Positions 22,306-27,424 of a DNA stretch of 64,000 nucleotides are shown here, piece after piece (position 1 is the first letter of the stretch; each line of letters opens with the position of its first letter). The DNA is taken from positions 62,001 through 126,000 of the forward strand of contig NZ_RCIH01000003.1 in assembly GCF_003675855.1 (NCBI RefSeq), read 5' to 3'. The notes beneath the pieces are model-generated. The model saw only the letters and a list, made by a program, of their open reading frames with translations. It was not told the origin of the DNA and made no database searches. Position numbers and translations under genes: made by a program. Source of the stretch: Halostella salina (GTDB taxonomy: Archaea > Halobacteriota > Halobacteria > Halobacteriales > Natronoarchaeaceae).

Positions 22306-22408
22306 CACCGCCCGGTAGCGCGGGCGGGGAATTAAACGGTCCGGATGGCGACGAGGCCGATCGGGACGAGCCACGGGTTTGAAGACGGTCGCACGCTCAC
22401 GGGGGCGT

Positions 22409-23998
22409 ATGACCGACGACCTCGCCGGGGCAGTCGACGACGTGCTCGACATCGACGCGGCGGAGTTCCAGGACCGCGTGGAGTCCGAGGCCGAGGTGAT
22501 CGTCGACGAGCTGCGGGACGGGACCTTCGACAACCCGCAGGCGATCCTCGGGCTGGAGTACGAGTTCTACGCGGTCTCGGAGCCGCGGCCGGACGCCAGG
22601 AAGGCCGGCGGTGCCGAGGACGCCGGTGACATGCCCACGCTGAAGCGGGTACCGCGACGCCTGCTGGAGCTCATCGGCTTCGAGAAGGAACTGGGGCTGC
22701 ACAACGCCGAGATGACCGTCAGCCCCCAGCCGATGAACGCTCACGGGCTGGCGGCACAGGAGGCGGAGGTGAAAGCCCGGCTGTCGACGGCGCTCGACAC
22801 CACCAAGGCGGAGGGGATGCGGCTGGTCAGCGACGGCATGTGGACCATCCCGCCGGAGGGCGAGACGGCGTCGTCGTACCTCACCGACAGCGTCGAGGAC
22901 CGGGGCGTCCGGATCGCCTCGAACATGAGCGACTCGGTGCGGTACCACGCGATGGCGAACACGGAGCGCGCGACCGCGGCCGGGATGCACGTCAACGCGC
23001 CACACGTCACGCTGGACGCCGACACCGTGATGCCCGAGAGCCTCATCACGTCGATCCAGCCCCACTACCAGGTGCCGCAGGCGGTCGACCTGCCGGACTA
23101 CTTCCGGTACGCGCTCCGGGTCGCCGGGCCGCTGCTCGCGCTCGGCGTCAACTCCCCCTTCTTCCCGCCGGACCTGTACGACGACGACGCCGACCCCGAG
23201 ACGATCCTCTCGGACGCGTGGATGGAAAACCGGATCAGCGTGTTCGAGACGGTGCTGAACGCCGAGCACGACACCGCCGGCAAGGTGCGGTTCCCGCGGG
23301 ACATCGACAGCGTCGAGGACGCCGTCCGCCGGATCGCCGAGGACGACACGCTCGTCCCGATGCCCGTCGAGGAGGGCGACCGCTTCGACGACAGGTTCGC
23401 CCACTTCCGGCTGAAACACGGCACGTTCTGGCGGTGGGTCAGGCCGGTGTTCGGCGGCCCGGACCGCTCGTCGGCCAACGCCCGGATCGAGTTCCGCCCC
23501 GTCCCCGCCCAGCCGACCGTCCGTGACTCCGTCGCCGTGCTCGCCGCCTTCGCGGGGCTGATGGAGAGCCTGCCGCGGCTGGAACATCCCGTCGCGGAAC
23601 TGGACTGGGAGACGGCCCGTGATAACTTCTACGCCGCCATGCGCGACGGGCTGGACGCCGACCTGCGCTGGATCCCGAACGACGGCCAGGAGACGAGCGA
23701 CTTCGAGGCCGTCTACGCCGACCTGTTCGACCACGCCGAGGCGGGACTGCAGGCACGGGGGCTCTCCGACGAGGAGGCGGCGAAGTACCTCTGGCCCCTG
23801 CGCCAGCGGGCGCGCCACCGGCTGACGCCGGCCGGCTGGAAACACGAGCAAGTTCGGCAACGGCTGTACGACGGGGCCACGTTCGAGGAGGCGGTCCACG
23901 GCATGCAACGGGAGTACGTCGACCGCCAGCGCGACACCCTGATCGAGGGGAGCTTCGCGGACTGGGTCGACGACAGCCGGCTAGCCGGAAGCGATTAG
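22409..23998 (+). CDS. Glutamate-cysteine ligase-like (GCS2-type fold) protein
   Basis: A 529-residue protein. LGLEYEFYAV near residue 47 matches the start of carboxylate-amine/glutamate-cysteine ligases, and HNAEMTVSPQP (about 98), SANARIEFRPVPAQPT (about 358) and other ATP/metal-binding-like segments follow. Haloarchaea use gamma-glutamylcysteine as their main thiol, but their GshA is about 360 residues. This longer form may be a paralogue with a different substrate, so the reaction is not assigned. It begins with an acidic leader at the ATG at 22409; the longer open frame upstream overlaps the ligase promoter region. CofD follows 24 bases later on the same strand. Confidence 0.6.
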   Translation: MTDDLAGAVDDVLDIDAAEFQDRVESEAEVIVDELRDGTFDNPQAILGLEYEFYAVSEPRPDARKAGGAEDAGDMPTLKRVPRRLLELIGFEKELGLHNAEMTVSPQPMNAHGLAAQEAEVKARLSTALDTTKAEGMRLVSDGMWTIPPEGETASSYLTDSVEDRGVRIASNMSDSVRYHAMANTERATAAGMHVNAPHVTLDADTVMPESLITSIQPHYQVPQAVDLPDYFRYALRVAGPLLALGVNSPFFPPDLYDDDADPETILSDAWMENRISVFETVLNAEHDTAGKVRFPRDIDSVEDAVRRIAEDDTLVPMPVEEGDRFDDRFAHFRLKHGTFWRWVRPVFGGPDRSSANARIEFRPVPAQPTVRDSVAVLAAFAGLMESLPRLEHPVAELDWETARDNFYAAMRDGLDADLRWIPNDGQETSDFEAVYADLFDHAEAGLQARGLSDEEAAKYLWPLRQRARHRLTPAGWKHEQVRQRLYDGATFEEAVHGMQREYVDRQRDTLIEGSFADWVDDSRLAGSD

Positions 23999-24022: not shown

Positions 24023-25015
24023 ATGGTGACGTTTCTCTCCGGCGGGACCGGGACGCCGAAGCTCCTGGACGGCGCGGCGGCCGCGTTCTCGCCCGCTGAC
24101 ACCACGGTCGTCGCCAACACCGGCGACGACGTGGAACTCGGGGGACTGCTGGTCTGTCCGGACCTGGACACCCTGATATTCCAGGGTGCGGGGCTGCTCG
24201 ACCGGGACACCTGGTGGGGGATCGACGGCGACACCGAGCGAACGCACGACGGCCTCGGCGACATCGCCGCGGCGCTGGACCTGAACACCGGGCCGCAGTA
24301 CCTCCCGGACAGCCGACAGACGGCGGGGCGGCCGCTCGCCGCGTGGCGGCGCTTCTCCGGCGTCGGCGAGTTCATGACGATCGGCGACCGCGACCGGGCG
24401 ATCCACATCACGCGAACGAGCCTCATCGACGAGGGACACACCCTCTCGGAGGTGACGGACCGCTTCGTCGACGGGTTCGACCTCGCCGTCGACCTGCTCC
24501 CGATGAGCGACGACCCCGTGGCGAGCCTGATCCACACGCCCAATGGGAAACAGCATTTCCAGGAGTTCTGGGTCGCCAACCGCGGCGAGCCGACGGTCGA
24601 GCAGGTGGAGTTCCGCGGGGCGTCCGAGGCCGAGCCGGCCCCGGGCGTGTTAGAGGCCCTTGAGGACGACGTGGTGATCGGCCCGTCGAACCCCGTCACG
24701 AGCATCGGCCCGATGCTTTCGATCGACGGCATCGGCGAGGCGCTTCAGGAGACCACCGTCGTCGCGGTCTCGCCGTTCGTCGAGGACGAGGTGTTCTCCG
24801 GCCCGGCCGGGAAACTCATGGAAGCGGTCGGCGGCGAGGCGTCGACGGCGGGGCTGAAGACGGCCTACCCCTTCGCCGACGCGTTCGTGCTGGACGAGGA
24901 CGACGACACCGAGTTCTCGGAGCCGGTCGTCCGGACCGACACGGAGATAACCGGCCCCGACGACGCCGCCCGCGTCGCGGAAGCCGCGGCGAAGGTGCTG
25001 GAGGTGGCGACGTAG
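24023..25015 (+). CDS. cofD: 2-phospho-L-lactate transferase CofD
   Basis: A 330-residue enzyme that transfers the 2-phospho-L-lactate (or phosphoenolpyruvate-derived) moiety to the deazaflavin Fo in coenzyme F420 synthesis. The N-terminal [14 protein letters not shown] loop, VVANTGDD, the DRDTWWGI segment and [13 protein letters not shown] are all family features. The length is typical. Its TAG stop overlaps the GTG start of the next gene by one base, indicating a coupled operon. Haloarchaea are known to make F420, used by oxidoreductases. Confidence 0.93.
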
Positions 25016-25761
25016 TGTTCCGCCCCCGGGTCGCGCTCGCCAGCCTCAGCGGCGAGGCCGACGCCGACTGGGCGCTGGCGGCCCGGGCGTACGCGGGCGC
25101 GGCCTTTCTCGGCGGGATCGCGATAGACGAGGCGTCCCGCGAGGCCGCCCGCGAGATGGTCGCCGACCGGGACCGGACCGAGTTCCTGCCGGCCGACCCA
25201 TTCGTGTTCGTCGACGACCAGCTTGCCGCACTCGACGGCGAACCGATACGTGCCGGGATCAACGTTCGGAGCGCGACGGTCGACCCGGTCCGGGACGCCG
25301 CGCGGATCTGTGCCGACCACGGCGCGGTCCTCGAAGTCAACGCCCACTGCCGGCAGGCGGAGCTCTGCGCCGCGGGCTGCGGGCAAACGCTCCTGCGCGA
25401 TACGGAGCGCCTCTGCGAGTACGTCCGCGCCGCCGCCGGGACGGGCGCGCCGGTGAGCGTGAAGGTCCGCACGGAGGTGCCCGGCGTCGACCTGCCGGCG
25501 ACCGCCCGGCGGGTCGCCGAGGCGGGGGCCGACGCCGTCCACGTCGACGCGATGGACTCCGAGGCGGTCGTCGCGGACGTGGTCGACCGGGCGGACGCGT
25601 TCGTGATCGCCAACAACGGCGTCCGGGGGCGCGAGAGCGTCGCGGAGTACTTCGAGTACGGCGCGGACGCGGTGAGCGTGGGCCGGCCGAGCGACGACCC
25701 CGACGTGCTCGCGCGGGTCCGTCGGGCGGTCGACGAGCTCGCCGTCGACGCCCACGCATAA
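25015..25761 (+). CDS. tRNA-dihydrouridine synthase-like TIM-barrel protein
   Basis: A 248-residue FMN-type TIM barrel starting with GTG at 25015, one base inside cofD. The centre has NAHCRQAELCAAGCGQTLL, which aligns with the Dus motif N-x-GCP...G-x-G-x-x-LL and keeps the cysteine. VSVKVRTEVPG and NNGVRGRESV...GADAVSVGR follow the Dus phosphate-binding pattern. It is shorter than true Dus enzymes (about 310-330 residues) and lacks the C-terminal helical tRNA-binding domain. It may therefore be a Dus-derived enzyme working in the cofactor cluster rather than on tRNA; that is inference. It is tightly linked to cofD. Confidence 0.72.
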   Translation: MFRPRVALASLSGEADADWALAARAYAGAAFLGGIAIDEASREAAREMVADRDRTEFLPADPFVFVDDQLAALDGEPIRAGINVRSATVDPVRDAARICADHGAVLEVNAHCRQAELCAAGCGQTLLRDTERLCEYVRAAAGTGAPVSVKVRTEVPGVDLPATARRVAEAGADAVHVDAMDSEAVVADVVDRADAFVIANNGVRGRESVAEYFEYGADAVSVGRPSDDPDVLARVRRAVDELAVDAHA

Positions 25762-25787
25762 GTGGCACCGCGCGAAAGGATCCCCCC

Positions 25788-26621
25788 ATGAAAACGCCGG
25801 CGCAGAACGCGGAACTCGCGCTCCTGCTCGAAGTCGCCGGGACCCCCAAGCCGGGGAACGTCGACCGAGAGCGGGAGTACCCTGACCTCCGGTTCGAACA
25901 CTTCCTCGCGGGCGCGGTCGGCGCGCGCGACGGTCTCGACATGGCGGCCGACGGCGCGCCGGTCGGCGAGGCGTTCGAGCGCGCCGTCGAGGGGATGAGC
26001 GACCAGCGCGGCGGCAACACGCAGTTCGGCGCGTTGCTCCTGCTCGTTCCGCTCGTTCAGGCGGCCGACGACCTCACGCCCGAGGGAGCGACCGCGGTCA
26101 CGGAGAACACGACGGTCGACGACGCCGCCGGCTTCTACCGCGCGTTCGACCACGTCGACGTGGACGCGGGTAAGCTACCCGCGGACGCCGAGGCGCTGGA
26201 CGTGCGTCGGGGGAGCGACGCGGTCCCCGATGTCCGCGAGCGGGGCCTGACGCTGTACGACGTGATGGCCGAGAGCGCCGACCGCGACGGCGTCGCCCGG
26301 GAGTGGGTCGGCGGCTTCGAGCGCACGTTCCGTGCCGCGGACCGCATCGCCGCGGGTGACGGCCCGGTCCCCGCCCGGGCGGCCGACACGTTCCTCTGGC
26401 TGCTGTCGCGGCAGCCCGACACGTTCGTCGCCAAGCAACACGGGACCGAGGCGGCCCGGAGCGTCATGGTCCGGGCACAGGAGGCCCGGGAGGGCGGTCC
26501 GGACCTCGTCGCCGCCTTCGCCGACTCGCTGGTCGAGTCGAACGTGAATCCCGGAACGACGGCCGACATCGTGGCGGCGGCGCTGTTCGTCGCGCTCGAA
26601 CGGGACGGTGTCGACGTGTGA
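25788..26621 (+). CDS. CitG/MdcB-like triphosphoribosyl-dephospho-CoA synthase family protein
   Basis: A 277-residue all-helical protein. TPKPGNVDR near residue 18 and the QRGGNTQFGALLLL segment near residue 71 match the CitG family, whose bacterial members attach triphosphoribose to dephospho-CoA for citrate or malonate lyase. No citrate or malonate lyase gene is visible. Archaeal and methylotroph homologues occur with methanopterin-type cofactor genes, so a role in pterin- or ribose-containing cofactor synthesis is possible. It starts 26 bases after the Dus-like gene, and its TGA overlaps the next gene's GTG by four bases. Confidence 0.78.
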   Translation: MKTPAQNAELALLLEVAGTPKPGNVDREREYPDLRFEHFLAGAVGARDGLDMAADGAPVGEAFERAVEGMSDQRGGNTQFGALLLLVPLVQAADDLTPEGATAVTENTTVDDAAGFYRAFDHVDVDAGKLPADAEALDVRRGSDAVPDVRERGLTLYDVMAESADRDGVAREWVGGFERTFRAADRIAAGDGPVPARAADTFLWLLSRQPDTFVAKQHGTEAARSVMVRAQEAREGGPDLVAAFADSLVESNVNPGTTADIVAAALFVALERDGVDV

Positions 26622-27208
26622 GCGGTGCGGACTGGCCGGTCGACCTCGACGGCGTCACCGAATCCGTCGTCACGACCCTCGGGCCGAACGACCTGTGGAA
26701 CGCGGCGGCGCTCGGCCTGCACGCGGGCGACCCCGTCACGGCGACGACGTGGGGCAACACCCGGACCCGCCGGAACTTCGACCGACAGGGCGGCGGCTAC
26801 GTCCAGTTCACGCGGGATCCTCTGTTGTTCGTCGAGGCTGCGCTCTCGATCCACGAGACCGCGGAGCCGGTGCTCGATGCGGCCGATGCCTGGATCGAGG
26901 TCGACGCTGACCGGGTCGACGCCGGCGAGGACGGCGGGACGCGCTGGGAGCGCTGGGAACTGCGTCCCGTCGATTCCGGCGTCGAGCGCGAGGTGGTGCC
27001 GACGACGAACCGCGGCTACTACGCCGTCGTCGAGGCGACGGTCGCGGCCTCCCGGCTCGACGTGGCGGCCTACGACACCGGCACACTGCTCGACCGGCTC
27101 TCGTACTTCGAAGGAATCGTCGAAACCTGCGGCGGCGAGCGCGAACTGGCGGCGTTTGAGCGCCTGACGGAGCTCACCGGGTGGAAATCGCAGAACGAAT
27201 CATTTTAG
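26618..27208 (+). CDS. DUF447 family protein (flavin-reductase-like split barrel)
   Basis: A 196-residue protein starting with GTG at 26618, overlapping the CitG-like stop (GTGA). It has the DUF447 features: LGPNDLWNAAALGLH near residue 20, TTWGNTRTRRNF, and the VPTTNRGYYAVVEATVAASRL segment in the middle. The fold is predicted to bind FMN. DUF447 genes are known from methanogens and in the tetrahydromethanopterin clusters of methylotrophs, usually near CitG-like genes, but their reaction is undefined. The end of this gene also carries the likely promoter of rps17e. Confidence 0.75.
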   Translation: MSGADWPVDLDGVTESVVTTLGPNDLWNAAALGLHAGDPVTATTWGNTRTRRNFDRQGGGYVQFTRDPLLFVEAALSIHETAEPVLDAADAWIEVDADRVDAGEDGGTRWERWELRPVDSGVEREVVPTTNRGYYAVVEATVAASRLDVAAYDTGTLLDRLSYFEGIVETCGGERELAAFERLTELTGWKSQNESF

Positions 27209-27232: not shown

Positions 27233-27424
27233 ATGCCGATCAAACCCGACTACGTCAAGAAGACCGGGAACGTGCTCCTGGAGCGATACCCGGAGGCGTT
27301 CAGCGCGGACTTCGAGCAGAACAAGGAGAGCGTCACGGCACTCACGAACATCGAGGCCAAGGGCGTCCGGAACCGCATCGCCGGCTACGTCACGCGCAAG
27401 CAGGGCGCGTCCGCGGAAGCGTAA
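27233..27424 (+). CDS. rps17e: 30S ribosomal protein S17e
   Basis: A 63-residue small-subunit protein specific to archaea and eukaryotes. PDYVKKTGNVLLE, FEQNKESV and VRNRIAGYVTRK are the conserved S17e segments. A ttttagg element about 30 bases upstream lies inside the end of the DUF447 gene. A short GC hairpin (GGAGC at 27458-27462, GCTCC at 27467-27471) follows the stop within the 138-base gap to asd. Confidence 0.95.
   Translation: MPIKPDYVKKTGNVLLERYPEAFSADFEQNKESVTALTNIEAKGVRNRIAGYVTRKQGASAEA

Follow-up and report, generated by a model that had tools for sequence, protein, structure and literature searches.

RFAP synthase is the first committed enzyme of methanopterin synthesis. Synthesis of the RFAP type yields an aryl C-riboside phosphate, methanopterin contains an alpha-riboside, and in CitG-type chemistry ATP is the ribosyl donor and C1 is inverted. 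We know of no enzymes assigned to the second-ribose and ribose-reduction steps of methanopterin synthesis. Here we describe four consecutive genes in a 64,000-nucleotide stretch of the genome of the haloarchaeon Halostella salina (contig NZ_RCIH01000003.1; the window hereafter), which encode CofD, a Dus-like barrel, a CitG-like protein and a DUF447 protein. We suggest, with a probability of about 0.5, that CitG and DUF447 form one biosynthetic module with an unlinked RFAP-synthase homologue. The module would make a tetrahydromethanopterin (H4MPT)-like coenzyme or its ribosyl-aryl arm, and would have been passed down from methanopterin-making relatives.

Bacterial and archaeal genes for H4MPT and methylofuran are covered in the available text of PMC8141765, PMC3615186, PMC6193120 and PMC5020050. 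For haloarchaea, the accessible part of PMC8305020 attributes the counterparts of methanopterin enzymes to folate and takes the view that HVO_2628, the RFAP homologue of Haloferax volcanii, does not make RFAP. The original prediction had placed the four genes in an organism without methanopterin metabolism. That premise is less secure than presented, as H. salina has a methenyl-pterin cyclohydrolase (Mch) gene as well as a homologue of RFAP synthase. Our searches gave no paper that connects a coenzyme of haloarchaea with CitG or DUF447, and earlier work may already link both families to H4MPT in bacteria.

Joint loss of CitG, DUF447 and the RFAP-synthase homologue

Family membership, joint loss, gene order and active-site residues were all established by computation. 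Sampling covered one phylum (Halobacteriota) plus control genomes, with a panel of 58 of the 196 Halobacteriota genomes (33 haloarchaea and 25 others). DUF447 was found in 185 of the 196 genomes; of the panel genomes, 53 had CitG, 55 a member of the RFAP-synthase family and 44 a member of the Dus-like family. Among the 33 panel haloarchaea, 30 carried DUF447, CitG and the RFAP homologue, and the other three carried none of the trio. The losers G008, G060 and G119 are each 99% complete. None of the other families sought in the panel matched this pattern, and neither COX1 (34 of 37 genomes) nor dihydrofolate reductase (DHFR; 30 of 37) followed it. Across 243 haloarchaea, 227 had both the RFAP homologue and CitG, five had neither, four had CitG only and seven had the RFAP homologue only, the last all at most 78% complete and two of them with very weak RFAP matches. 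In the 205 good genomes the corresponding counts were 201, three, one and zero. Fisher tests gave p = 1.3e-5 for the 243 genomes and 2.8e-6 for the 205, values that are not corrected for kinship. The H. salina RFAP homologue is unlinked to the CitG-DUF447 site and lies on contig C6 (L115:6626-7621). A tie between the trio and aerobic life was considered and rejected, as COX1 was absent in the losers G008, G060 and G347 and present in the losers G119 and G204; any such link is partial at the very most.

The site in the window, with its downstream neighbour, is as follows:

24023-25015, plus strand: cofD, 2-phospho-L-lactate transferase of coenzyme F420 biosynthesis (TIGR01819)
25015-25761, plus strand: Dus-like flavin-type TIM barrel of the MJ0144 family, 248 aa, GTG start (PF01207, TIGR00736)
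25788-26621, plus strand: CitG-like gene, homologue of ATP-dependent triphosphoribosyl transferase, proposed module gene (PF01874)
26618-27208, plus strand: DUF447 FMN-binding split-barrel protein, proposed module gene, GTG start (PF04289 and PF20766)
27233-27424, plus strand: 30S ribosomal protein S17e, a kept downstream neighbour (NF002242, 89.7 bits, cut-off 72)

Open reading frames and DNA agree with the original prediction on the four genes at 24023-27208 and on their junctions: a 1-base overlap between cofD and the Dus-like gene (TAGTG), 26 bases between the Dus-like and CitG-like genes, and a 4-base overlap between CitG-like and DUF447 (GTGA). Third-position G+C was 0.89-0.94 in all four by codon-position count, as real genes of a G+C-rich genome would show. 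CofD scored 370.7 bits against its equivalog TIGR01819 (cut-off 257.45) and the CitG-like protein 221.4 bits against PF01874 (cut-off 27). Both Pfam domains of DUF447 were matched (DUF447_N, 77.6 bits, cut-off 24; DUF447_C, 63.5 bits, cut-off 24.8). Downstream of DUF447 lie S17e and aspartate-semialdehyde dehydrogenase (asd). Directly upstream of cofD, a 539-aa frame (22379-23998) had no match in Pfam or NCBIfam; it also occurs near cofD in G195, G129 and G190.

The losers keep the surroundings of this site. It reads cofD-Dus-S17e-asd in G008 and G060, where Dus and S17e are 40 bases apart; in G119 they are separated by 1,208 bases. The original prediction had treated the four genes as one pathway, in which an F420- or pterin-linked cofactor would be built or modified and the Dus-like protein would act as a small-molecule reductase. 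The cofD-Dus-CitG-DUF447 order, which is kept in haloarchaea and also occurs outside them (L127), speaks for this idea, as do the short or overlapping junctions in the window. However, cofD and the Dus-like gene were retained in G008, G060 and G119, the Dus-like gene lies away from CitG in G038, G180 and G190, and G018 has the trio with no Dus-like match detected. We consider a single four-gene pathway highly improbable. The gene that disappears with CitG and DUF447 is the unlinked RFAP homologue, which the original grouping did not include. Co-occurrence analysis, proposed together with that grouping, divided the four: CitG and DUF447 track the RFAP homologue, and cofD and the Dus-like gene are kept where it is lost. 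These two are probably conserved neighbours with separate jobs of their own, cofD standing outside the three-gene module.

Clustering of the Dus-like, CitG and DUF447 genes in haloarchaea is more than chance. The Dus-like gene and CitG were on the same strand and at most 1.5 kb apart in 26 of the 29 haloarchaea carrying both, and CitG adjoined DUF447 in 18 of 18 haloarchaea among the matches listed with both positions. We also noted that CP031304.1 (987 kb; L248, L340, L342), a “plasmid” of Natrinema thermotolerans, is probably a piece of chromosome, since it carries cofD, S17e, L21e, RNA polymerase and rRNA-methylase genes.

The proposed module and its product

The H. salina RFAP homologue scored 159.6 bits against the subfamily model TIGR00144 (MptG; cut-off 113.5), which was above cut-off in 224 of the 243 haloarchaeal genomes. 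Among solved structures, ForT was closest to the haloarchaeal protein. With the binding residues for phosphoribosyl pyrophosphate (PRPP) and the catalytic residues of ForT taken from the accessible text of PMC8183095 and PMC9832568, positions R19, H99, G101, G103, T106, R135, S139 and E211 (ForT numbering throughout) were invariant in all 21 haloarchaeal sequences. In the alignment, several pocket positions differed between the haloarchaeal and 11 group 1 RFAP sequences; Phe24, Arg138, Ala263 and Gln266 were common to haloarchaea and two enzymes from bacterial H4MPT islands. A new aromatic-acid substrate was rejected as the explanation of the changed pocket because these bacterial enzymes share most of the differences, an Asp-to-Asn change excepted. 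In RFAP trees, a branch with full support set the haloarchaeal sequences apart.

Two unusual RFAP sequences were encountered. One haloarchaeal genome (G383) carries an extra group 1, methanogen-type RFAP synthase, pocket included (L082 and L334; G383:C1:131130-131960), beside the usual haloarchaeal homologue. In a non-halophilic member of Halobacteriota, DUF447 is followed, about 2 kb further downstream, by a very divergent RFAP-like paralogue (L131:9872-10795; G013:C42:91871-92794) without the conserved R135, T138 and S139.

In the CitG-like protein, PKPGN-DR was among the residues conserved at 90% or more across 22 haloarchaeal and 120 other Halobacteriota sequences, and the closest solved structure was 3h9p. 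The DUF447 model (predicted local distance difference test score, pLDDT, 84.3) best matched DUF447 structures titled as bound to flavin mononucleotide (FMN). Both by sequence and by fold the matches were 2iml (about 30% identity to the window protein), 2nr4 and 2ptf; our literature searches gave no reaction for any of the three. As an FMN split barrel, DUF447 might stand in for DHFR, which is missing in the DUF447-bearing haloarchaea G195, G028, G089, G134 and G151. However, G119 is without both proteins and many genomes carry both; this role is most improbable, and we rejected it as the main one because of G119.

From the families involved we infer the chemical steps, their order and the product. 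The RFAP homologue would form an aryl C-riboside by coupling an aromatic acid, which loses CO2, with the ribose phosphate moiety of PRPP. An intermediate would next be reduced by DUF447 and its FMN, in the simplest case by opening ribofuranose to ribitol, a step for which an FMN reductase is a reasonable candidate. ATP would supply the second ribosyl phosphate, which CitG would transfer while adenine is released, and CitG-type inversion at C1 would then yield an alpha linkage, as in the riboside of methanopterin. In haloarchaea the most likely product is an H4MPT-like pterin or the ribosyl-aryl arm of one; it would serve alongside folate, and Mer, an F420-dependent reductase, may use it on the route to methionine.

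A plasmid of Halobellus limi (NZ_CP031312.1, L246:7986-12818) carries the run mer-DUF447-RFAP-metE-metE beside npdG, and its RFAP homologue has a pocket of the haloarchaeal type. This run suggests that DUF447 and the RFAP homologue are linked with methionine synthesis and with the F420-dependent formation of methyl-pterins. It was seen once and is no general arrangement, since metE is apart from mer in Natrinema and Haloarcula plasmids. Loss of Mer and MetE alongside the trio is possible in the loser G060, 19% of which is missing from the data. The Halobellus mer, npdG and metE proteins had no match at E 1e-5 in 80.8% of G060 (85 loci, 1,685,946 bases), in a search that did recover cofD, the Dus-like gene and asd. 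A control search with metE recovered three further copies from haloarchaeal plasmids, 48-69% identical. Mer of Halobellus is divergent, its best matches on other plasmids reaching 29-33%, so its missing matches in G060 carry little weight.

The archaeal dihydropteroate synthase (DHPS)-like family TIGR00284, which joins the pterin, was above cut-off in none of 46 haloarchaea and in five of five methanogen-side genomes. Pterin attachment, if any, would thus be carried out by another enzyme. The weak haloarchaeal matches to TIGR00284 were mostly long frames of about 800-1150 aa, which we take to be compatible with a FolP-FolC fusion. The same absence favours an alternative in which the product of the trio is a C-riboside that was never attached to a pterin, either a coenzyme or a C-nucleotide. 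Retention of Mch where the trio is lost points the same way, as does the C-nucleotide synthase ForT being the closest solved relative of the RFAP homologue. However, the substrate pocket is mostly that of bacterial H4MPT-island enzymes, the Halobellus plasmid places the genes with mer and metE, and a folate-type FolP could perform the joining. We regard a pterin-free product as unlikely. On a broader reading, nearly all haloarchaea might make a second one-carbon carrier alongside folate, an H4MPT-like pterin. The three proteins of the module would build its aryl-riboside arm, and the folate enzyme FolP would take the place of the archaeal DHPS in attaching the arm to the pterin. CitG and DUF447 would then be general ribosyl-transfer and ribose-reduction enzymes of methanopterin synthesis, and the methyl group would pass via Mer to methionine synthase, a route proposed because the Halobellus run suggests it. 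We offer this broader version tentatively, as one that is possible and probably too broad.

Several observations weigh against the three-gene module. Two of the three good losers belong to one genus, so there are few independent loss events, and clear independent losses of the trio may number just two. DUF447 was checked in 16 discordant or losing haloarchaea and one other genome, not in all 243, and was found in 10 of these 17 and absent from G008, G060 and G119. Mch was found in 45 of the 51 genomes examined and was retained in the trio losers, so Mch does not require the module. Six genomes of families f31 (G196, G206, G216, G223) and f37 (G202, G212), 58-78% complete and partly reduced, were without CitG and most had the RFAP homologue and DUF447; in G206 the site reads cofD-DUF447-asd, and Mch was undetected in all four f31 genomes. 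CitG thus looks dispensable in some haloarchaeal lineages. Conversely, G197, G252, G283 and G301 had CitG and DUF447 with the RFAP homologue undetected, and the methanogen-side genomes G155 and G178 had RFAP synthase, TIGR00284 and Mch with CitG and DUF447 absent. The one haloarchaeal protein scanned against the strict RFAP equivalog NF040726, from G180, scored 169.7 bits, below the cut-off of 328. The sole pocket change confined to haloarchaea is Asn for Asp at ForT position 26, which in our own alignment corresponds to Asp19 of the Methanothermobacter thermautotrophicus enzyme; Asn at Asp19 retained some activity there, according to the available text of PMC6787355. Folates have been shown in some haloarchaea (PMC3261824, accessible text). 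It is because of the Asn change, the missing DHPS-like gene, the retention of Mch and the f31/f37 pattern that we hold our confidence in the module at the level given above.

If the module is real, the accepted picture of a haloarchaeal switch from methanopterin to folate, as presented in the available part of PMC8305020, would leave something out: a coenzyme that most of a large archaeal order has conserved would have been overlooked. Candidates would also be named for two steps of methanopterin synthesis, the second ribose and the ribose reduction.

The Dus-like barrel

The Dus-like protein exceeded the cut-off of Pfam PF01207 (30.9 bits, cut-off 20.4). Its best model was the MJ0144-family TIGR00736, at 119.9 bits and below the cut-off of 218.7. 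The structural model of the 248-aa chain (mean pLDDT 92.5) was a barrel throughout and ended there, with the tRNA-binding C-terminal helical domain of Dus enzymes absent. Its best fold matches were a mixture of dihydroorotate dehydrogenase and Dus. We regard it as a flavin-type barrel of its own that lacks the domain for tRNA binding, which makes the originally predicted action on a small molecule plausible.

An ordinary tRNA dihydrouridine synthase in an accidental neighbourhood is the competing view. It draws on the Pfam match and on two conserved residues: the Cys of NAHCRQ, invariant in nine aligned sequences and presumably at the catalytic Cys position of Dus, and the Lys of SVKVR. However, besides the missing helical domain and the mixed fold matches, the methanogen orthologues carry a C-terminal methanogenesis-marker-9 domain (TIGR03277; three of three scanned), which was absent from both haloarchaeal proteins scanned. 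We judge this view quite improbable. In the Methanothrix-type loci L195, L201, L218 and L235, the Dus-like barrel was degenerate, with the HCRQ motif missing in the aligned stretch, and still joined to a C-terminal stretch resembling the methanogenesis-marker-9 domain.

Comparison with described systems

The RFAP homologue resembles the C-nucleotide synthases ForT and PyfQ (6yqq), which are homologous PRPP-dependent C-glycoside synthases with the PRPP residues and Glu211 in common. The substrate of ForT is a pyrazole dicarboxylate, in formycin synthesis (PMC8183095, available text). The CitG-like protein has PF01874 in common with the CitG/MdcB triphosphoribosyl-dephospho-CoA synthases. It differs from them in scoring at best 29.4 bits against their equivalogs, far below cut-offs of 272-477, none of which was reached, and in its H4MPT context in other organisms. 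DUF447 of the window belongs to the same Pfam family and fold as 2iml, 2nr4 (MM1853) and 2ptf (MTH_863).

That CitG-like and DUF447 genes are known from H4MPT clusters of methanogens and methylotrophs, as originally predicted, agrees with what we found in L127, in the named loci and in Paraburkholderia. In L127 the run cofD-Dus-CitG-DUF447-DmrX is followed by a PHP gene and then a DHPS-like gene, with DmrX, a dihydromethanopterin reductase, and the DHPS-like gene above the cut-offs of TIGR02700 and TIGR00284. Among 80 named loci, which were collected through CitG and many of which end short of the full neighbourhood, DUF447 was within 300 bases of CitG in 62, the Dus-like gene within 900 bases in 43 and a DmrX homologue within 300 bases of DUF447 in 19; a DHPS-like gene was present in four.

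In bacterial H4MPT islands, RFAP synthase, mch and CitG were clustered in all three records examined. The two Paraburkholderia records, alone of the three, have DUF447, around which RFAP, mch, CitG, a DmrX homologue and a DHPS-like gene lie in one stretch; in Azospirillum, CitG adjoins fae. The two bacterial island RFAP sequences have Asp where haloarchaea have Asn, and Paraburkholderia has the DHPS-like gene. Methanogen H4MPT islands, defined by RFAP synthase, TIGR00284 and DmrX, have CitG-DUF447 directly before DmrX in several Halobacteriota lineages, and the DHPS-like gene after DmrX in some loci. Compared with these islands, haloarchaea are without TIGR00284 and keep CitG, DUF447 and the RFAP homologue, the last forming a separate clade.

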